IMG/VR virus record: IMGVR_UViG_3300028556_000016
Coordinates: 1-44,786 of that record
DNA length: 44,786 bases
DNA from: a virus
Strand: one strand, 5' to 3'
Below the pieces are notes generated by a model. It saw only the letters and a program-made list of their open reading frames with translations, had not been told where the DNA came from and ran no database searches. This document shows, piece by piece, positions 5,454 to 21,030 of the stretch; position 1 is the first letter of the stretch, and each line of letters opens with the position of its first letter. The position numbers and the translations under genes were made by a program.

Positions 5454-6035
5454 ATGGCACGACCAAGGAAACTAAATGTCCAGCGCGAACCCAACGGTAA
5501 GCCGAAGCGCAACGTCATATCGGCGGAAGTCCTCTTTTACAGGATGCGTGATTTGGCGCGGGATGGGGCGTCTATCGAAAGGCCCGATGACGCCCTTGCG
5601 GGATTTACATTGGGGAAACTATTGCTGCGATGGCGGTCAAATAAAGCAGACGGAATTTCAGTAAAGCAATACGAGGCTGGCCAAAGATGGTCTGCGATCG
5701 TTCAGGAGCATGCCAAATTAATGGGGTATGACCTTTTCGTAAGGTCGCCAAGGTTCGAAAAAATCAGCCCGGGATTTGATAATGAAATTGAGCCAGACGA
5801 AGACGCGCCAGAAGGAAGTGAGGCGAGGGAATTATGGATTAAAGTCACCAGAATAAAAAGGGTTTTTGTAGCTTGCTATGACGCATTAATGGCTGAATGC
5901 AAATTACATGGAATAAACGTTAGAGATGTCACTTATGGGGTATGCGTAGAGAACTGGAGGGCGGGGGGTCTCTCTCAGAGAGACTTTCAAGACCTTCGCG
6001 TGGGCCTGAATTCGCTCGCGAGGGTATTATCATGA
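5454..6035 (+). CDS. Hypothetical phage protein, MARPRK start (193 residues)
   Basis: Begins MARPRKLNVQREPNGKPKRN, a basic tail that could bind nucleic acid, then mixed helices; the end (VCVENWRAGGLSQRDFQDLRVGLNSLARVL) is strongly helical. It follows a DUF1376 gene, a position where lambdoid phages carry late regulators, but no antiterminator motif can be named. Its stop overlaps the methyltransferase start (ATGA at 6032-6035), tying it to the downstream glycan-type cassette. Confidence 0.6.
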   Translation: MARPRKLNVQREPNGKPKRNVISAEVLFYRMRDLARDGASIERPDDALAGFTLGKLLLRWRSNKADGISVKQYEAGQRWSAIVQEHAKLMGYDLFVRSPRFEKISPGFDNEIEPDEDAPEGSEARELWIKVTRIKRVFVACYDALMAECKLHGINVRDVTYGVCVENWRAGGLSQRDFQDLRVGLNSLARVLS

Positions 6036-6619
6036 ATTATTGGAATAAGATTATAATCACGCAGCGGCAAGCAAAATACCCCGCCGAGACATTCGTGCGG
6101 TTTGTGGCGCGAAACTATTATGGCGAGCCCGACAGAAGCAAAGTTCACTTCCTCGATCTTGGGTGCGGGGCAGGGGCTAATTCATGGTTCCTGGCGCGCG
6201 AGGGTTTCAGGGTGACTGCGCTTGATGGATCAGAGGGCGCACTCGCGTCGCTCAAGCACAGGTTTCACGTGGAACAATTCAACGCCGATGTCCATTACGC
6301 GCATTCGGATATTTGCGAATGGCTGTATCCGGTTTCAAAATTCAACTGTGTTCTCGATCATAACACGCTCTGCCATGTCGAGAAGCCGCCAATGGACAAG
6401 ATTTATGGCTCGCTCATTAGTGGCGGCAAGTTCTTTTCCGTGGCACCAGCCGAAGATACCTGGAAGGGAACGCTAATCAATAAAGGTTTCTGCCGAACGC
6501 TGATGCGCGGCGAGATCAAGCGTCTCTATCGGCCATTCGAGGATATTAAAATCCGCAAGCAAACATATCCAGACAATCAATTCACCATCGCATCGTGGGT
6601 GATTGAGGCCACGAAATGA
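6032..6619 (+). CDS. Class I SAM-dependent methyltransferase
   Basis: A 195-residue protein with a Rossmann methyltransferase core: motif I VHFLDLGCGAGANSWFLA near residues 38-55, the acidic end of strand 2 (VTALDGS), HSDICEW for the adenine-binding turn, and VLDHNTLCHVEKPPMD then LISGGKFFSVAP for motifs IV-VI. It lacks NPPY-type DNA-methylase motifs, so a small molecule, sugar or nucleotide-sugar acceptor is more likely. Start chosen at 6032 for the ATGA overlap. It is the first enzyme of a coupled run including a WbqC-like protein, an aminotransferase and a cytidylyltransferase. Confidence 0.8.
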   Translation: MNYWNKIIITQRQAKYPAETFVRFVARNYYGEPDRSKVHFLDLGCGAGANSWFLAREGFRVTALDGSEGALASLKHRFHVEQFNADVHYAHSDICEWLYPVSKFNCVLDHNTLCHVEKPPMDKIYGSLISGGKFFSVAPAEDTWKGTLINKGFCRTLMRGEIKRLYRPFEDIKIRKQTYPDNQFTIASWVIEATK

Positions 6620-6693
6620 CAGAAGTCGATTTCCTGCGCGCAATGCTTGTCGTAGCCGGGGTAATAATCATCATTTATGGATTTTTGAAATGA
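6616..6693 (+). CDS. Small membrane peptide (25 residues)
   Basis: MTEVDFLRAMLVVAGVIIII followed by YGFLK, a single hydrophobic helix with a short acidic N-terminus and a Lys at the end. The start overlaps the methyltransferase stop (ATGA) and the stop overlaps the ATG of the WbqC reading frame (ATGA at 6690-6693). The stop is immediately followed by the tRNA. Small coupled membrane peptides may anchor neighbouring enzymes; that role is a guess. Confidence 0.6.
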   Translation: MTEVDFLRAMLVVAGVIIIIYGFLK

Positions 6694-7454
6694 GCCGGGA
6701 TAGCTCAACGGCAGAGCGTCGCGATCGTAACGCGAAGGTAGTCAGGTTCAATTCCAGACTCCCGGCACCAATTCTTTCTGGGCATGCTCCGGTGTATCTG
6801 CCGGGCATTCTGTTCTTTAACAAGGTTGCGCTTTCGTCGGCTTTTATGTTTGTGGGGCACTGTCAATACAGCCAGAAGAGCTGGCAAACACGCAACCGAA
6901 TCCGGCAGGGCGATAAATCAATCATGCTCTCGGTGCCGGTGCAGAAGGACTTCGGGCAAAGCGTAAACGATACCCAGATCATTGAGGGCAACTGGCGCAA
7001 GAAGCATCTACGCTCGATCCAGCAAGCCTATTACCGCAGCCCATATTTCGACTGGTATTACCCGCATCTAGAACAACTCATCGCCCATCCGTTCAAATAT
7101 CTTGGCGAGATGAACATGGCGATCATCGTAACAATGCTCGACTGGCTGGAAATAGAAACAACAATTCTCGACAGTTCCGACTACCCGATCGAGGGTCACA
7201 AGACCGATATGTTGCTGAGTATGTGCGAGTGCGCGCGCTACGACCATTATCTATCGAACGAAGGGGCGCGGGCTTATGTCGATGAATACCGCATGAAGGA
7301 TTACGAAGTCACGCACCATTGGCAAATCTTTGAACATCCCCAGTATGAGCAGGGGCATCGCGACTTCATCCCAAATCTTTCAGCCATCGACTTGCTATTC
7401 AACGAAGGGCCAAGGGCGGCGAATATTGTGAGGTCATGTGGCCACATCGCTTGA
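6690..7454 (+). CDS. WbqC-like protein
   Basis: From residue 28 the protein matches the WbqC family (PF08889): ILSGHAPVYLPGILFFNKVA, then FVGHCQYSQKSWQTRNRI and SVPVQ, and later HLEQL..HPFKYLGEMNMAII. WbqC proteins occur in O-antigen and other polysaccharide clusters, often beside aminotransferases, and are suspected acyl- or glycosyl-transfer enzymes. The start is uncertain. The ATG at 6690 overlaps the previous stop, but the first 27 codons are then the tRNA sequence. Homology begins at codon ATT 6771, the base after the tRNA CCA; GTG 6792 is the first conventional internal start and would remove conserved residues. It overlaps the aminotransferase by 17 bases. Confidence 0.75.
   Translation: MSRDSSTAERRDRNAKVVRFNSRLPAPILSGHAPVYLPGILFFNKVALSSAFMFVGHCQYSQKSWQTRNRIRQGDKSIMLSVPVQKDFGQSVNDTQIIEGNWRKKHLRSIQQAYYRSPYFDWYYPHLEQLIAHPFKYLGEMNMAIIVTMLDWLEIETTILDSSDYPIEGHKTDMLLSMCECARYDHYLSNEGARAYVDEYRMKDYEVTHHWQIFEHPQYEQGHRDFIPNLSAIDLLFNEGPRAANIVRSCGHIA
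6694..6770 (+). tRNA. tRNA-Thr (anticodon CGT)
   Basis: A 77-base cloverleaf. Acceptor GCCGGGA (6694-6700) pairs perfectly with TCCCGGC (6760-6766), followed by A and encoded CCA (6768-6770). D arm: GCTC (6703-6706) / GAGC (6714-6717) with GG in the loop. Anticodon stem TCGCG / CGCGA, loop ATCGTAA (6724-6730), anticodon CGT at 6726-6728. T loop TTCAATT (6747-6753). The T stem is odd: six positions with an internal A-A mismatch (6744/6756), one base longer than normal. Encoded CCA and perfect acceptor and anticodon stems argue for a working tRNA. Confidence 0.85.
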
Positions 7455-8139
7455 AGAATTGATGCAATACGAGCACTCCATCGGCTTCCCAAGGGCCAGG
7501 GACGCGCTCGCTGCATGGTGCGAGATAACGGGCGAGAAGATCAGCATTCCAACGAATTGCTGCCCGGCGCTATTGCCATTCGCAAAGGAGCTTGTGCCGA
7601 TCGATCCAGAGACGGGATTAGCTCCCGTGCCAGTCCAGCTCTACGGCTATCGCCAGATATTCCCCGGAGCAAAGCTTGAGATCGACCCGCTGATGACTGG
7701 GCTCATGGGCTCGCCATTTGCTGAGTCAACCATCGTAAGCTTCGGCTACGCCAAGACGATCGACATTGGTGGAGGCGGCGCAATCCTGACCAATGATAAA
7801 TCCTTGGCAGATGAATTGATGAAACGGGGAGTATTTCCCCCAATTCTAATTGACCCATTGGCTGATGCGCTCGGGCGCATTCACTCCATCATCATGGAGA
7901 AGAAAAAACAATACGAGGAAGTCGAGAATGAATTTGCGCCATTTTTAGTGCGATTGCCTGAAAGGCCAGCCGTGCCTTGGAGATTTGTATCCACGATATC
8001 CGAACAGCCAACCAACGAGATTAAAAGTACTTTCGTGCGACGTGGATTGAAATTCAGCCGCAATTATCCACCGCTTCCAGGCGTGACGGACCCCGGCGCA
8101 ATCGAATGGGGTAAGAAGGTCATCAACATATGGAAATAG
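7438..8139 (+). CDS. Miniature DegT/DnrJ/EryC1-type PLP aminotransferase
   Basis: A 233-residue protein, against roughly 370-400 for the family. It keeps the key landmarks in compressed form: FPRARDAL (substrate-site helix), ISIPTNCCPAL (the VIVPS...T strand), LVPIDPETG (the PVFVD strand), then SFGYAKTIDIGGGGAILTND with the PLP-forming Lys106, and a C-terminal part with RRGLKFSRNYPPLP. Family enzymes transaminate keto-sugar nucleotides. Deletions lie mainly between the cofactor strands, so activity is uncertain. Start is GTG 7438, overlapping the WbqC-like gene by 17 bases; stop overlaps the next ATG. Confidence 0.75.
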   Translation: MATSLEELMQYEHSIGFPRARDALAAWCEITGEKISIPTNCCPALLPFAKELVPIDPETGLAPVPVQLYGYRQIFPGAKLEIDPLMTGLMGSPFAESTIVSFGYAKTIDIGGGGAILTNDKSLADELMKRGVFPPILIDPLADALGRIHSIIMEKKKQYEEVENEFAPFLVRLPERPAVPWRFVSTISEQPTNEIKSTFVRRGLKFSRNYPPLPGVTDPGAIEWGKKVINIWK

Positions 8140-8327
8140 ACGAACTCGACGACATCATGAACCAGATCGAAGCTCAGCGCGTTCGCAACAATCACTATTT
8201 CATGAAGATGTGGCGCATGGTTTTCGAATGTCCCCATTGCCAGACGAATGCCCGCGAATTCCAGAAAGAAATCCGTCAAGGCGACCTGCGCATATCCGAA
8301 CTCAATTCAAGGCTAGCAAGCACATGA
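8130..8327 (+). CDS. Small CxxC protein (65 residues)
   Basis: MEIDELDDIMNQIEAQRVRN begins an acidic-helical protein, with a single FECPHCQTNAREF zinc-knuckle-like motif and a coiled-coil tail. It overlaps the aminotransferase by ten bases and the cytidylyltransferase by four. With one CxxC it could bind metal only as a dimer. Possibly an accessory subunit of the cassette; no family recognised. Confidence 0.6.
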   Translation: MEIDELDDIMNQIEAQRVRNNHYFMKMWRMVFECPHCQTNAREFQKEIRQGDLRISELNSRLAST

Positions 8328-9070
8328 GCCGAATTGGTTGCATAATCCAGGCGCGCATGGGCTCGGAACGTCTCCCCGGCAAGGTGATGATGGATCTGGA
8401 TGGCGAGCCCGTCCTCGCCCATGTATTCCGCCGCATGAAAACAGTCGGGCTCGATGTGGTGTGCGGGGCATTCCCGGATGAACCAGCATCGGCACCGCTT
8501 ATCGAACTCGCCAAGGCCCACAAGGCCGGTGTCTATCTGGGCGATGAAAAGGACGTTCTCAATCGCTATTACGAAGCGGCAAAGCATTTCGATCTTGATG
8601 CCGTGATGCGCGTGACGGGAGACTGCCCGCTCATAGACCCGGTAGTATGCGCCAAGGTCTTGGCGGCTTATGAAACCGGCCTATTCGATTTCGTGGCCAA
8701 TGATGTCTATGCGAGCTACCCAATCGGGCTGGGCTGTGAGGTGTTCGGCTTTGGACTTCTCGAACGGGCCGCCAATCATTGCGGCGACCCCTACGGCCGT
8801 GAGCATGTCTCCCACTGGATGAAACACCTTAGGGGTTATTCAACGTGGAATTTAGGCTGTCCCATCAACTACATAGGCGGCCTAAAGCTGGCAATTGATA
8901 CTCAATTCGACCTCGATTACGTGCGCGCCATCATGGCCCAGAAGCCGGAGGATTACACACTCGCCTCAACACTGGCAGCGCGTGAGCGGGCTGAGGCCGC
9001 TGGTACTCTCCCTCAGGCCCCAAGCTGGAATCAAACAAGTCGAGGAACTGAAGAAAGTCGGGTCGCGTAG
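8324..9070 (+). CDS. SpsF/NeuA-type cytidylyltransferase
   Basis: A 248-residue protein of the acylneuraminate/KDO cytidylyltransferase family, SpsF-like branch. The N-terminal nucleotide-binding signature is IIQARMGSERLPGKVM (residues 7-22), followed by PVLAHVFRRMK, DEKDVLNRYYEAAK and the metal-site motif RVTGDCPLIDP. The length suits the SpsF group. Such enzymes make CMP-activated sugars for surface glycans. The start at 8324 overlaps the previous stop by four bases and gives exactly the conserved N-terminus. Last gene of the 6032-9070 cassette. Confidence 0.88.
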   Translation: MSRIGCIIQARMGSERLPGKVMMDLDGEPVLAHVFRRMKTVGLDVVCGAFPDEPASAPLIELAKAHKAGVYLGDEKDVLNRYYEAAKHFDLDAVMRVTGDCPLIDPVVCAKVLAAYETGLFDFVANDVYASYPIGLGCEVFGFGLLERAANHCGDPYGREHVSHWMKHLRGYSTWNLGCPINYIGGLKLAIDTQFDLDYVRAIMAQKPEDYTLASTLAARERAEAAGTLPQAPSWNQTSRGTEESRVA

Positions 9071-9085
9071 TATTGACTTTCATTG

Positions 9086-9283
9086 GTGAAATGTCCGAAA
9101 TGCCATTGTCGCTTCTCGCGACCAAATCCAAACAATTTAAATTCGCGCAGCGCGAGGCCGTCCACTCCAATCCCACTGGGAAGGCTAGTGGCCCTGACGA
9201 GGATAACCCGAGCAGATCGGGATAAGGCCGAACTTTTCAAGGTTACAAAATGCCAAGCAAGAGCCCGGCCCAAGCACGGCTGA
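9086..9283 (+). CDS. Small CPKCHCRF protein (65 residues)
   Basis: Starts VKCPKCHCRFSRPNPN (GTG 9086; an in-frame TTG lies at 9083) and has three closely spaced cysteines like a minimal zinc ribbon, followed by a basic Pro/Arg-rich part. The last 34 bases overlap the next gene. It resembles small zinc-finger genes before phage packaging modules, but support is modest. Confidence 0.45.
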   Translation: MKCPKCHCRFSRPNPNNLNSRSARPSTPIPLGRLVALTRITRADRDKAELFKVTKCQARARPKHG

Positions 9284-9423
9284 TGGCCGCTGCTGCCCAT
9301 ACGAAGGGCGGATATGGCGGCGTTCCTCAATCGGTCGGTAAAGAGTTCAATCAGGCCGACAAGGGCTCAGGCATTCTCTCGCGCGCCATGAAAATCAAGA
9401 AGCCGAAGAAAATCAAAATCTAA
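9250..9423 (+). CDS. Conserved small podovirus protein, MPSKSPAQ type (57 residues)
   Basis: MPSKSPAQARLMAAAAHTKG..., then GVPQSVGKEFNQADKGSGI and a Lys-rich end. The pattern (S/K)SPAQ-RLM...A-....G-PQSVGKEF is widespread in small genes near terminase genes of podoviruses and prophages. Function unknown; possibly a minor virion or packaging factor. Its stop overlaps the next start (TAATG). Confidence 0.7.
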   Translation: MPSKSPAQARLMAAAAHTKGGYGGVPQSVGKEFNQADKGSGILSRAMKIKKPKKIKI

Positions 9424-9536
9424 TGCCCGGCCCATGCGCCATCATCATCATTGAACCGGCAGCAATCTTTTTATTCCTTGGTCTAGGCTTCGTTCTCGTA
9501 GTCCTTCAATGGCTATTAAATTCGAGAAGGACGTAA
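9423..9536 (+). CDS. Small membrane protein (37 residues)
   Basis: MPGPCAIIIIEPAAIFLFLG and a further hydrophobic run ending in NSRRT: one membrane helix with a basic C-terminus (positive-inside suggests C-in). The start overlaps the preceding stop by one base. Function unknown. Confidence 0.55.
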   Translation: MPGPCAIIIIEPAAIFLFLGLGFVLVVLQWLLNSRRT

Positions 9537-9537
9537 T

Positions 9538-9813
9538 GTGTTCATCACTAAATGGAAATTCGACCGCGCCATCACGGCGCTTCACTCACACATCAACATA
9601 TCGGATAGAACCCTCATGGCAGCGATCGACGATCTGAAGGCCGAAGTCTCGACAGTCGCATCTGACGTATTGGCGGCAATTGCCAAATTTACGAGTTCAT
9701 TACCCCCCTCACAGGATCCCGCAATTGCACAGGCAACAGCTGACCTCAAAGCAGCGGTCAAGCCATTGGAAGATTTCGTAAATCCGCCTGTCGTCACACC
9801 TCCGAGCACCTAA
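9538..9813 (+). CDS. Hypothetical helical protein (91 residues)
   Basis: Start GTG 9538. Residues about 20-75 form an amphipathic helix or coiled coil (DRTLMAAIDDLKAEVSTVAS, then a TADLKAAVKPLEDFV repeat-like stretch); the tail is Pro/Thr rich. The DLKAxV pattern suggests a small trimeric or dimeric coiled coil. It lies just before the putative small terminase; no family recognised. Confidence 0.55.
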   Translation: MFITKWKFDRAITALHSHINISDRTLMAAIDDLKAEVSTVASDVLAAIAKFTSSLPPSQDPAIAQATADLKAAVKPLEDFVNPPVVTPPST

Positions 9814-9833
9814 CTGGTAACAAGGCTAAAACA

Positions 9834-10196
9834 GTGAGCGATAATCCGTCTCCATCCCCCCCGCATAGCGGCCGATGGAAACCAGGACAATCCGGCAATC
9901 CGTCAGGCAGGCCCAAATCAAAGCCGTTCAAGGAAGCGCTGCAAGCCGTTATCGAACGTGTAGGGCTTGATGGCGCTGCTGCTGCATTAGTCGCAAGGGC
10001 CAATACCGGCGATGTCGCAGCCATTAAAGAAATAGGCGACAGGCTGGACGGCAAGGTCCCGCAATCAATCGGCGGCTCTGACGAACTTCCCCCCATCCAG
10101 GGATTTGCATGGATCGACCCTATATCGAATATCACGACCTCAGGGACACAAAAGACAGGCGAGGATGCTGGCTCGAAATCACCGAGCACAGATTGA
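9834..10196 (+). CDS. DUF5681-type protein, putative small terminase subunit
   Basis: A 120-residue protein starting at GTG 9834. RWKPGQSGNPSGRPKSKPFKEAL (residues 14-36) is the DUF5681 signature, found in phage proteins next to large terminases and often annotated as the small subunit or a terminase-associated DNA-binding protein. The middle (ALVARANTGDVAAIKEIGDRLDGK) is helical. Position, two genes before the large terminase, supports a role in recognising the packaging site. Confidence 0.7.
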   Translation: MSDNPSPSPPHSGRWKPGQSGNPSGRPKSKPFKEALQAVIERVGLDGAAAALVARANTGDVAAIKEIGDRLDGKVPQSIGGSDELPPIQGFAWIDPISNITTSGTQKTGEDAGSKSPSTD

Positions 10197-18273: not shown

Positions 18274-21030
18274 ATGGCGACCGCTGCAATATATAATAAG
18301 GCGGTAGGCGCCCGTTACAAGAAATCGAATAAGATACCCCTTCAGATGGGAATGGTGGGGCCATCCGATTTCATGGTCTATTTCCCGTTCATCAACTTCT
18401 GGAAAACGGGGCAATCGAACTATTCCGTAACGGATGGCGGAACAACCTATATGGCTGGAATTGCCCCCGGCAAGACGTTCCTCAACATATTTCCGTCCGG
18501 GTATAATATTTATTTCGATGACGAGAGTAATCTTATCAGCCCGTCACCGGCTTCATCGTCGGCAACATTATCGCGACGAATTATTACCTGGGGGAGCACG
18601 TTAAGCGACCTCGGCGGGTATACACTCGCAGGCAAGAACTTTGTAATGAAGTGGGACGGCCATTCGGTCACGTTCCAGGGCACATTGAACGGCTCCGGCA
18701 TTCTGACCGTCACTTCGCCAACTGGCGGCACACTAAAAGTAGGAGATCTGATTACCGGAGTCGGTGTTCCGGTTAATTGCACAATTACGCAGACCAATGC
18801 CGAGAATTCGTCGCGAACGGGAACGGGCGGCGCCGGGACTTATACTTGCGCGCAGGGCGGCTCTATTTCGTCCGCCATTCCGATGGCAACGGCAACGTGG
18901 CAGGTTGGGTTTAACAACAGCACCGTGAGCGGGCTAGTCCAGTTCGGCAATCGCCTGACGTGGACTTCGGTGGACGCGACATGCAATCCCCTCATGGCGC
19001 ATCTGGACCAAACCGACCCGCCAATTAATGTTTGTATATGCCTTGCCTCGAACGAGGCGGCCTATGACGCGGGCGAGGTATTCGATCCAGAATGGCTGGC
19101 AGGAATGAAGGATGGCGCCAGCATCATCCGAACGATGACATGGGTTGTTGCCTCTGGTGGCGGCGTGCGGAATATCGCCAATAGAACATTCGCAAGCCTG
19201 CCGACCGAGGCTAATTCATGCTGGTGCAACTGCACGGACATTCCGCCAGTCAAGGGCGGCCTGCCGCTCTCGCTGATGCTCAAGCTGGCGAACCAGACCA
19301 ACAAGCATCTGTGGGTCAACATTCCGCCATTCATGGGGTTCAAGAAATTCAGCGATCAGGGAACGATTACCTGGGGGACAACAACAAGCGTCTCGGGAGA
19401 TCCGAACCATAACTTTGTAAACGGCGATAGCGCTGTTCTATTTGGGTTCTACGGCGGCTCCTATCAGGCATTCACCGGCATCGAGGGAACGGTGTCGAAC
19501 GTCACATCGAACTCATTCGACATTGGCATAAACTCACTCACCGGAGCAGCCTGGTCATCGGCGACGACATATGGAGTCAATGATGTCGTATCGCAGTCCG
19601 GTAGGGATTATATCTCCCTCCAGGCCGGAAACCTTAACAACTCGCCGACCACGAGCCCGACATTCTGGCAGATATCAACCTTTGGCCCGGGCGCTGAGGT
19701 TGTCTCGGCCTATGACCTGACCGACCACTATACCGAGATAAAGCTTATTGCGGACTATGTGCGCGATAATCTTAACTCCGGCCTGGTTGCCTACTACGAA
19801 CTTGGTAATGAGAACTGGAACGGGGCAAGCTTCAATAAATTATTCTTCTCGGCAATGTATGATGTTGCTGTTGCTCGCGGGGTGCCATTCCCGACTCCTG
19901 GAAACAATAATAATCGCTTCATCTGCATGAATGGCTATCTTCATGCGAATATGATGCGGGCGGTTCGGGATTCTTATGGTGCTGCAAACAAGGGCACCAA
20001 ATGGCGCGGCATTCTCAATACCTGGACCATTCAATCGACTGTTACCGATAATACAATCATTGGAGCAAAGCAGCTCATTACCGATTTGAGCCTCGGGCTC
20101 AATTTGAGCGATCTGTTTGATTATATTTCGGTCGCGCCCTATTTCGGGAATATCCACTCGAATGGTGCTTATCAGGCTGCGGTCAATGGCGATTGGCGTG
20201 TGGTCAATCTTCTCATCGGATGGATACAGACCAGCATTGATCGCTTCAATAACGGACTGGAATCAACAAAATACGCATACTATGACCGCAAGGTGAACGA
20301 GGATGCCTATGATGGGCGTTATCAAAATCCGATCAGCACAACTTTCCCCATCCCGGTAACGGGGTTTTTCACTCCGGGGCAGGGTTCAATTCTCGATCCG
20401 ACAAATGGGGTCAAGGCCTATGCGACTGCGAACGGTCTAGGAATGATCGGCTATGAAGGCGGTAATGGTGACTATATTGGCTATGTTTCATCGCGCCCGA
20501 ATTCGCTTGACGACATATGCTATACCAACTTCACCGGAAGCGTATCGGGCACCAATCTGACCGTGACGGCGGTTTCAACCGGCGTTGGGCTTGGCAAGCT
20601 TGTTGTTAATCAGCAAATCATCGGGATTGGAAGTTGGAATCAGTTTTCCAGCGAGTCATCCGCAACCGGCGTTTCTGCCAATACCTACATTCTGTCGCAG
20701 ACGAGCGGCACAACCGGCACAACCGGTGTCTATGTGATCTCGACGGCGCAATCAACGGCGTTATCGACCGCGCAAGCGCTCTATGCCGACTTCTATCCGC
20801 TGTTTCGTGAGTTCTTTCCGCAAACGGTGCAGACACCTGCCGAGGCCAAGAATTACGTCGAATATTTCAAGGGGTGTGAGGCCGCTGGCATCGTCTATCC
20901 AGCTAAGTTTGTTTATGAGGGGCCATCGAGTGAATTCGGGGCATATGGCGCCAAGAGATACCCCGGCGATAATAACCTGACATGGCAGGTTGTTAGAGCA
21001 TTCAATCTTGGAATACCCCCGCCCGTTTAG
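18274..21030 (+). CDS. Glycosidase-like tailspike (918 residues)
   Basis: A large multi-domain protein. YYELGNENWN at 507-516 is the clan GH-A acid/base motif (Asn512-Glu513), and GYEGGNGDY at 727-734 supplies a candidate nucleophile Glu728 at a suitable distance. Inserted modules: a GSGILTVTS...GDLITGVGV...GTYT unit (about 140-192) with a diverged second copy (about 755-825), and a CBM5/12-like segment AWSSATTYGVNDVV...W (about 426-465). The catalytic barrel would span both halves with these modules looped out. It likely binds and cleaves host surface polysaccharide. The final part (PSSEFGAYGAKRYPGDNNL) is probably C-terminal barrel. Confidence 0.7.
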   Translation: MATAAIYNKAVGARYKKSNKIPLQMGMVGPSDFMVYFPFINFWKTGQSNYSVTDGGTTYMAGIAPGKTFLNIFPSGYNIYFDDESNLISPSPASSSATLSRRIITWGSTLSDLGGYTLAGKNFVMKWDGHSVTFQGTLNGSGILTVTSPTGGTLKVGDLITGVGVPVNCTITQTNAENSSRTGTGGAGTYTCAQGGSISSAIPMATATWQVGFNNSTVSGLVQFGNRLTWTSVDATCNPLMAHLDQTDPPINVCICLASNEAAYDAGEVFDPEWLAGMKDGASIIRTMTWVVASGGGVRNIANRTFASLPTEANSCWCNCTDIPPVKGGLPLSLMLKLANQTNKHLWVNIPPFMGFKKFSDQGTITWGTTTSVSGDPNHNFVNGDSAVLFGFYGGSYQAFTGIEGTVSNVTSNSFDIGINSLTGAAWSSATTYGVNDVVSQSGRDYISLQAGNLNNSPTTSPTFWQISTFGPGAEVVSAYDLTDHYTEIKLIADYVRDNLNSGLVAYYELGNENWNGASFNKLFFSAMYDVAVARGVPFPTPGNNNNRFICMNGYLHANMMRAVRDSYGAANKGTKWRGILNTWTIQSTVTDNTIIGAKQLITDLSLGLNLSDLFDYISVAPYFGNIHSNGAYQAAVNGDWRVVNLLIGWIQTSIDRFNNGLESTKYAYYDRKVNEDAYDGRYQNPISTTFPIPVTGFFTPGQGSILDPTNGVKAYATANGLGMIGYEGGNGDYIGYVSSRPNSLDDICYTNFTGSVSGTNLTVTAVSTGVGLGKLVVNQQIIGIGSWNQFSSESSATGVSANTYILSQTSGTTGTTGVYVISTAQSTALSTAQALYADFYPLFREFFPQTVQTPAEAKNYVEYFKGCEAAGIVYPAKFVYEGPSSEFGAYGAKRYPGDNNLTWQVVRAFNLGIPPPV

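Follow-up and report, generated by a model that had tools for sequence, protein, structure and literature searches.

A candidate reduced nonulosonic acid cluster in a temperate phage genome, with a tRNA-Thr gene inserted at the start of wbqC

Phages that alter nonulosonic acids have been described before. In Acinetobacter baumannii, the prophage-encoded proteins EpaA/EpaB convert pseudaminic acid to 8-epipseudaminic acid (PMC12053666), a two-enzyme epimerization shown by NMR. Phages also encode O-acetyltransferases that target capsular Pse/Leg (PMC6586298) and so likewise tailor host-made nonulosonic acids, and one table of a review lists pseI among the genes of marine phages or GTAs (PMC6359870). 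The described bacterial pathway, PseB-C-H-G-I-F, is represented by flm of Caulobacter and rkp of Sinorhizobium, and Alphaproteobacteria use pseudaminic acid on flagellin and in rhizobial capsule (PMC7591256). Searching the literature for the function of WbqC and for phage-encoded pathways like the one described below returned little besides the Acinetobacter cases.

Here, we analyzed IMG/VR record IMGVR_UViG_3300028556_000016 over its full 44,786 nucleotides (the window), a temperate phage genome that carries a cassette of six overlapping genes at 6032-9070 on the + strand. We consider it somewhat more likely than not (roughly 55%) that this cassette is a phage moron, a reduced form of a nonulosonic acid (pseudaminic-type) cluster whose leftover genes modify and CMP-activate a host-made nonulosonic-type sugar or precursor. 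Such a cassette would resemble EpaA/EpaB in that prophage genes alter a host-made nonulosonic acid and the product is placed on the host surface, there the capsule. Unlike the EpaA/EpaB pair and the single O-acetyltransferases, it is a biosynthesis-type block (WbqC, DegT, small protein, and cytidylyltransferase).

Gene content of the cassette

The cassette and the phage gene preceding it are arranged as follows.

5454..6035, + strand: upstream phage gene, family unassigned; 4-base overlap with the methyltransferase gene
6032..6619, + strand: SAM-dependent methyltransferase (MT), 195 aa (PF13649, 8e-13)
6616..6693, + strand: one-helix membrane peptide, 25 aa (from sequence)
6694..6770, + strand: tRNA-Thr(CGU) gene, 77 bases, CCA encoded (ARAGORN; Rfam RF00005)
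6690..7454, + strand: WbqC-family protein (PF08889, 4e-60, 203.8 bits versus a cutoff of 21.3)
7438..8139, + strand: short DegT/DnrJ-type PLP protein (DegT1), 233 aa (PF01041, 16.5 bits, below cutoff)
8130..8327, + strand: small protein of an uncatalogued family, 65 aa (viral-contig scan)
8324..9070, + strand: CTP-dependent sugar cytidylyltransferase (CT), 248 aa (PF02348, 5e-18, 66 bits versus a cutoff of 22.6)

A Pfam search and the sequence itself bore out the original prediction of a methyltransferase, a 25-aa membrane peptide, a WbqC-like protein, and a cytidylyltransferase. The predicted overlaps of 4 to 17 bases are also all present (4, 4, 17, 10, and 4 bases from MT through membrane peptide, WbqC, DegT1, and small protein to CT), but the one between membrane peptide and wbqC runs into a tRNA-Thr gene that had been missed, and the unbroken translational coupling proposed for the cassette is interrupted there. 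This tRNA-Thr(CGU) gene scores 56 bits against Rfam RF00005 (gathering cutoff, 29) and forms a cloverleaf whose T stem contains an A-A mismatch. Its insertion point was set by comparing the wbqC start regions of the window and two relatives, L002 and L008: it lies in frame, exactly between wbqC codon 1 (ATG 6690) and codon 2 (ATT 6771), and breaks up the ATGA stop/start coupling preserved in the relatives. Because the tRNA gene spans 6694-6770, it supplies the 26 codons that follow ATG 6690; ATG 6690 is the ancestral wbqC start, and the conserved part begins at ATT 6771.

The call of a DegT-type aminotransferase held in part. DegT1 retains the PLP-lysine motif (SFGYAKTIDIGGGGA), but it has 233 aa against the 360 positions of the PF01041 model, and its 16.5 bits fall below the Pfam cutoff of 19.8. 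The best NCBIfam match of this short protein is PseC, at 19 bits versus a cutoff of 423.5. In alignment, its C terminus is about 20 to 32 residues short of those of L002 and L008 and stops right at the small gene, an end that would fit what a deletion leaves. Profile comparison of DegT1 with the proteins of a bacterial chromosome, the Acidobacteriales MAG L018, was weak, and its AlphaFold2 model, built from 3 sequences, was poor (pLDDT, 44). A genome-contig scan with DegT1 gave no match, and a named-phage search found neither DegT1 nor CT. Its PDB matches, weak and mostly to kinase chains, were taken as chance.

The small protein had been labeled a CxxC protein, a label we drop, as the CxxC is not conserved among its relatives and is incidental. 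It belongs to an uncatalogued family of ∼60 aa with no match in Pfam or PHROGs. When viral contigs were scanned with the small protein alone, 18 loci were recovered; CT, PseB, or NeuB/PseI lies within 6 kb in 16 of them, and the remaining 2 end at a contig edge. The protein was absent from the 396 Acidobacteriota genomes, plasmids, and named phages searched. The family appears to be tied to phage nonulosonate clusters and may serve as a marker of biosynthesis-type clusters of this kind in many uncultured phages.

Fuller clusters and an empty site in related phages

The same gene order recurs outside this genome, so the original prediction survives its own refuting condition, a gene set found nowhere else. 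L002 reads MT-membrane peptide-WbqC-DegT1-PseI-PseB-DegT2-small-CT and L008 reads MT-WbqC-DegT1-HNH-PseI-PseB-DegT2-small-CT; the window keeps this order minus PseI-PseB-DegT2. Because the cassette is syntenic in other phages at about 32 to 52% identity, it is no chance array. Orthologs of MT occur in both relatives (identity, about 32 to 40%), and the membrane peptide has a 27-aa positional counterpart in L002 and is absent in L008. The best NCBIfam models for the L002 proteins are PseI (8e-38), PseB (8e-88), and PseC (4e-8), with the phage PseB, PseI, and PseC matches falling below the curated equivalog cutoffs. Since two related phage types add PseI-, PseB-, and PseC-like genes, the block probably derives from a nonulosonic acid (pseudaminic-type) pathway, which supports the predicted role in sugar-nucleotide metabolism and narrows it to these acids. 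On the bacterial side, wbqC of L018 sits inside a cluster with DegT/PseC-like, CT, NeuB/PseI-like, and PseG-like genes.

The described pathway (PMC7591256) shares PseB-, PseC-, and PseI-like and CMP-activation steps with L002 and L008; its enzymes include no WbqC, short DegT protein, or small protein. A complete pathway is not supported in the window, from which dehydratase and synthase are absent: tblastn found no PseB or PseI/NeuB there, both of which are present in L002 and L008; an L018 PseG-like query found no PseG; and the cassette proteins gave no GNAT match that could represent PseH, a step that WbqC might conceivably perform instead. Without PseB, PseI, and PseG, the window cannot make a nonulosonic sugar alone.

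We propose that the fuller block would yield a CMP-activated nonulosonic sugar via a PseB-like dehydratase, a DegT aminotransferase, a PseI-like synthase, and CT; putative tailoring enzymes would be MT, WbqC, and the short DegT protein. In the window lineage, probably one deletion took the DegT1 tail and the PseI-, PseB-, and PseC-like genes, and the remaining genes would act on a host-supplied sugar or precursor of the nonulosonic type, modifying it and activating it with CMP. Transfer is proposed to fall to host glycosyltransferases because none was found with the cassette, neither among the window proteins scanned nor in the L002 and L008 cassettes; these would attach the product to flagellin, capsule, or LPS, so that other phages may meet an altered surface, with a possible effect on superinfection. 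Phage control of nonulosonic acids, known from Acinetobacter prophages, would then reach biosynthesis-type clusters carried by many uncultured phages, and the cassette is a candidate system for how phages alter surface sugars recognized by other phages.

The site itself is empty in L053 and about eleven IMG/VR relatives, and homologs of the upstream gene 5454..6035 sit upstream of TerL in the cassette-less L084, L098, and L104. Bradyrhizobium phage ppBeUSDA76-2, of the same phage type (MCP, 63%; portal, 52%), lacks the cassette ahead of TerL; because the site is empty in this phage, we regard the cassette as a moron. The host assignment is drawn from phage relatedness only. As in temperate phage morons, extra genes occupy a site empty in relatives; in contrast to morons, the cassette overlaps the upstream phage gene and its own promoter and terminator were not detected (promoter-like sites in the region, 2 versus 5.2 in shuffles, none above chance; terminator-like sites, 6 versus 5.7).

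Decay, virion glycosylation, and other sugars

A serious if unlikely rival is that the cassette is a decaying remnant that lost its core enzymes, took up a tRNA gene, and retains functionless genes. PseB, PseI, and the second DegT are gone, DegT1 is truncated, and the wbqC start codon is separated from its gene by the tRNA; moreover, in 4 of 13 near-invariant columns, window WbqC alone carries a different residue (Q6A, D23S, I65V, and G156R). However, all larger frames are open, and the CT motifs are intact. Window WbqC, 48 to 55% identical to its counterparts in L008, L002, and L018, is also at least as near the bacterial L018 protein (55%) as are the L002 (54%) and L008 (49%) copies, and L008, with the full gene set, itself departs at 3 near-invariant WbqC columns. 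WbqC gave three weak matches in named phages and no PDB sequence match; its AlphaFold2 model, from 4 sequences, was poor (pLDDT, 58), and Foldseek with this low-confidence model returned nothing at E of ≤0.001.

Expression with the packaging genes, as originally predicted, is plausible: the cassette lies directly before TerL on the same strand, is coupled to the upstream gene, and has no promoter-like site above chance. These features would also suit late production of an activated sugar for tail or capsid proteins of new virions; the structural proteins are rich in Thr (9.1% of codons), a possible O-glycan acceptor. We judge virion glycosylation distinctly improbable, given that the scanned proteins include no glycosyltransferase and that about eleven related phages of this type do without the cassette.

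Still more doubtful is a CMP-sugar of another kind, unrelated to nonulosonic acids and made by the reduced set itself: a host sugar nucleotide would be aminated by DegT1 and modified by WbqC. CT, whose profile matches PDB 6oew (2e-32), does fit KdsB-type models better than PseF, reaching 16.8 bits against the PseF equivalog (cutoff, 205.7), and bacterial WbqC neighbors are most commonly DegT aminotransferases, just 3 of 75 being NeuB. Nevertheless, the window CT forms a clade with those of the PseI/PseB-bearing L002 and L008 (support, 98/92), and the small protein points to nonulosonate clusters.

Possible roles of the tRNA-Thr gene

The window, L008, and L055 each have tRNA-Thr genes within the CT cassette or close to it. 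That the tRNA belongs to cassette function, as threonine donor for amino-sugar N-acylation by WbqC, has next to no probability: L002 has the cassette but no tRNA anywhere in the whole 44.8-kb record, L132 carries tRNA-Thr in this region but not the cassette, and codon supply for Thr-rich virion proteins or tRNA-dependent lysogeny, a known phenomenon (PMC10865867), would explain the tRNA equally well. Lysogeny of that type is unsupported in the window, as the tRNA matches no more than 11 bases at any other place in it, and that match lies away from the integrase.

A speculative and rather unlikely reading is a switch at the level of RNA processing that trades tRNA supply against sugar modification: one RNA would give either mature tRNA, with end processing removing the wbqC start, or WbqC with a tRNA-encoded N terminus, and never both. 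In this reading, the small protein would be an unrecognized part of virus-encoded nonulosonate pathways. The in-frame tRNA insertion offers a concrete case for testing translation of an RNA that is cut during tRNA maturation.

Overlapping genes of the cassette and fuller relatives

The virus record (44,786 bases) had been predicted from sequence alone to carry an overlapping glycan-type gene set. Pfam matches for the methyltransferase, WbqC, and cytidylyltransferase, together with gene overlaps of 4 to 17 bases, bore out a cassette of six protein genes:

6032-9070, + strand: the cassette, containing in order the six genes below
within 6032-9070, + strand: methyltransferase (PF13649, 8e-13)
within 6032-9070, + strand: membrane peptide, 25 aa
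within 6032-9070 (part, 6771-7454), + strand: WbqC-family protein (PF08889, 4e-60)
within 6032-9070, + strand: DegT-like protein, 233 aa (PF01041, 16.5 bits, under cutoff)
8130-8327, + strand: small protein, 65 aa
within 6032-9070, + strand: cytidylyltransferase (PF02348, 5e-18)

Successive genes overlap by 4, 4, 17, 10, and 4 bases, and the methyltransferase start overlaps the preceding gene by 4 bases. Coexpression with the packaging genes fits these data, because the cassette is coupled to its upstream neighbor and no excess of promoter-like or terminator-like sites was seen around it.

IMG/VR scans with WbqC and the cytidylyltransferase as queries recovered two related phage types, one represented by records L001 and L002 and the other by L008. 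The L002 order is methyltransferase, membrane peptide, WbqC, short DegT-like protein (DegT1), PseI, PseB, a second, PseC-like DegT (DegT2), small protein, and cytidylyltransferase; that of L008 is methyltransferase, WbqC, DegT1, an HNH gene, PseI, PseB, DegT2, small protein, and cytidylyltransferase. Among NCBIfam models, the three added L002 proteins matched PseI (7.7e-38), PseB (8.1e-88), and PseC (4.1e-8) best, all below equivalog cutoffs. Given 61% TerL and 57% portal identity, the window and L008 are phages of one type, and the cytidylyltransferases of the window, L002, and L008 form one clade (support, 98/92) in a tree of 21.

The cassette is a moron in a phage that carries its own integrase. 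Bradyrhizobium phage ppBeUSDA76-2, which resembles the window in capsid (63%), portal (52%), layout, and presence of an integrase, lacks a cassette in the interval from its DUF1376 gene to TerL. Among 80 IMG/VR loci retrieved for their similar portal, cassette genes occurred only in L054 (the L001 record) and L055, and about eleven loci with a long upstream region had none.

The closest chromosomal WbqC found (55% identity) lies in an Acidobacteriales metagenome-assembled genome (L018, 1-9566), clustered with a DegT/PseC-like aminotransferase, a cytidylyltransferase, a PseG-like protein, and a NeuB/PseI-like synthase; the gene directly before it resembles DegT by eye, with no Pfam match. WbqC was present in 51 of 297 sampled Acidobacteriota genomes, most often flanked by DegT aminotransferases (12 of 75 flanking proteins; NeuB, 3), with PIG-L deacetylases, methyltransferases, and glycosyltransferases as other common neighbors.

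The small-protein family

Relatives of the small protein occur in 8 of 11 other cytidylyltransferase-bearing or cassette records (L002, L008, L010, and L013 to L017); none was found in L011, L012, or the cut L055. These eight lack CxxC, so the initial label of "CxxC protein" does not describe the family (∼60 aa), whose motif is I..IR..NN..W...L.iA.k.aP.ea....I..nD..is.l. Members are located as follows:

window, 8130-8327
L008, 7379-7576
L010, L013 to L017, and L134 to L151

Queried alone (∼55 aa) against all IMG/VR contigs, the small protein yielded 18 loci. In 16 of them, a cytidylyltransferase, PseB, or NeuB/PseI gene lies no more than 6 kb away; in the other two (L136 and L138), the contig ends 1.1 and 0.13 kb behind it. 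Five contigs were already known from the cytidylyltransferase search, and L144 and L145 appear to be duplicates, leaving about a dozen independent loci. As a control, such genes occurred in 2 of the 80 portal loci, both of the cassette lineage. The family is tied to viral CMP-nonulosonate clusters. Pfam, PHROGs, and PDB gave no noteworthy match to it, and it was not found in 396 genomes of Acidobacteriota, the one bacterial phylum covered. In L010, L014, and L016 (∼7000-10000 in each), the cytidylyltransferase is fused to a class III aminotransferase resembling glutamate-1-semialdehyde aminomutase, and several of these other phages carry Gfo/Idh, PseB, and PIG-L genes near the fusion.

A tRNA-Thr gene at the wbqC start

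In the original prediction, 6694-6770 formed the beginning of the WbqC frame; ARAGORN and Rfam instead identify a tRNA gene there. tRNA-Thr genes were located as follows:

window, 6694-6770: tRNA-Thr(CGU), 77 bases, CCA encoded
L008, 8179-8254: tRNA-Thr(UGU), overlapping the final cytidylyltransferase codons
L055, 854-930: tRNA-Thr, ∼0.5 kb behind the cytidylyltransferase
L132, 7582-7662: tRNA-Thr, upstream of TerL

The L008 WbqC gene begins AAATGATTTTGAGC (Met-Ile-Leu-Ser-Gly-His), its ATG overlapping the preceding stop; that of L002 begins GTGATCCTTTCC, with the same overlap, behind a 27-aa membrane peptide. When the tRNA and one base are removed and the window flanks joined, the result is AAATGATTCTTTCT, which restores this arrangement and indicates that 78 bases were inserted exactly behind the wbqC start codon. 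The insert preserves the frame, and the one tRNA frame of three that is open is that frame; as this would arise by accident with a chance of roughly 1/9, it is weak evidence for selection. Translation of the window WbqC may start at ATG 6690 (through the tRNA), ATT 6771, or GTG 6792. In this phage type, the prepackaging region repeatedly contains a tRNA-Thr gene, and two of these genes overlap a protein gene, at the window wbqC start and the L008 cytidylyltransferase end.

Because L132 has the tRNA without the cassette, and L002 the cassette with no tRNA found in the whole record, the tRNA is tied less to the cassette than to this region in the phage type. Codon supply is a simple reason for it, since Thr codons make up 9.1% of structural genes (12480-33923) versus 4.2% of the cassette. 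tRNA-dependent lysogeny is an alternative reason for a phage tRNA (PMC10865867); no corresponding attP match was found in the window.

Proposed function and reduction of the cassette

Beyond what is read directly from the sequences (gene content and order, empty site, reduced content, and tRNA insertion), we propose a role whose sugar, precursor source, acceptor, and benefit are putative. The fuller phages would produce CMP-nonulosonic acid, and the window phage would take a related sugar or precursor from its host, modify it, and activate it. Host enzymes would attach the product, as neither the cassette nor the window proteins scanned yielded a glycosyltransferase. The Bradyrhizobium phage relative points to an alphaproteobacterial host; in Alphaproteobacteria, pseudaminic acid decorates flagellin (Caulobacter) or forms part of the capsule (Sinorhizobium) (PMC7591256). 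Phages are already known to carry genes that act on nonulosonic acids, and the proposed role follows the same logic as that of Acinetobacter prophage enzymes that change these acids in the capsule (PMC12053666, PMC6586298).

Decay of the window genes is a serious rival, because the wbqC start is interrupted and the window WbqC (6771-7454) alone departs from its family at 4 of 13 near-invariant columns (Q6A, D23S, I65V, and G156R). However, WbqC of L008, with its full set, also deviates at three such columns, and the window cytidylyltransferase motifs are intact.

Searches of the window by tblastn with PseB, PseI, PseG, and DegT found none, the short DegT1 being too diverged for these queries. 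DegT1 stops ∼20 to 32 residues short of its relatives, exactly at the small-gene start. We infer a single deletion from the DegT1 tail to the small gene in the window lineage, which would account for both the missing genes and the truncation; the other lineage may instead have gained the extra genes independently, but this would leave the truncated DegT1 unexplained.

Neither the combination of WbqC, short DegT, and small protein nor a tRNA within a wbqC start was found in the searchable literature or libraries. Elsewhere in the window, a 918-aa protein (18274-21030) gave a weak, below-cutoff match to a carbohydrate-binding module (CBM_5_12).
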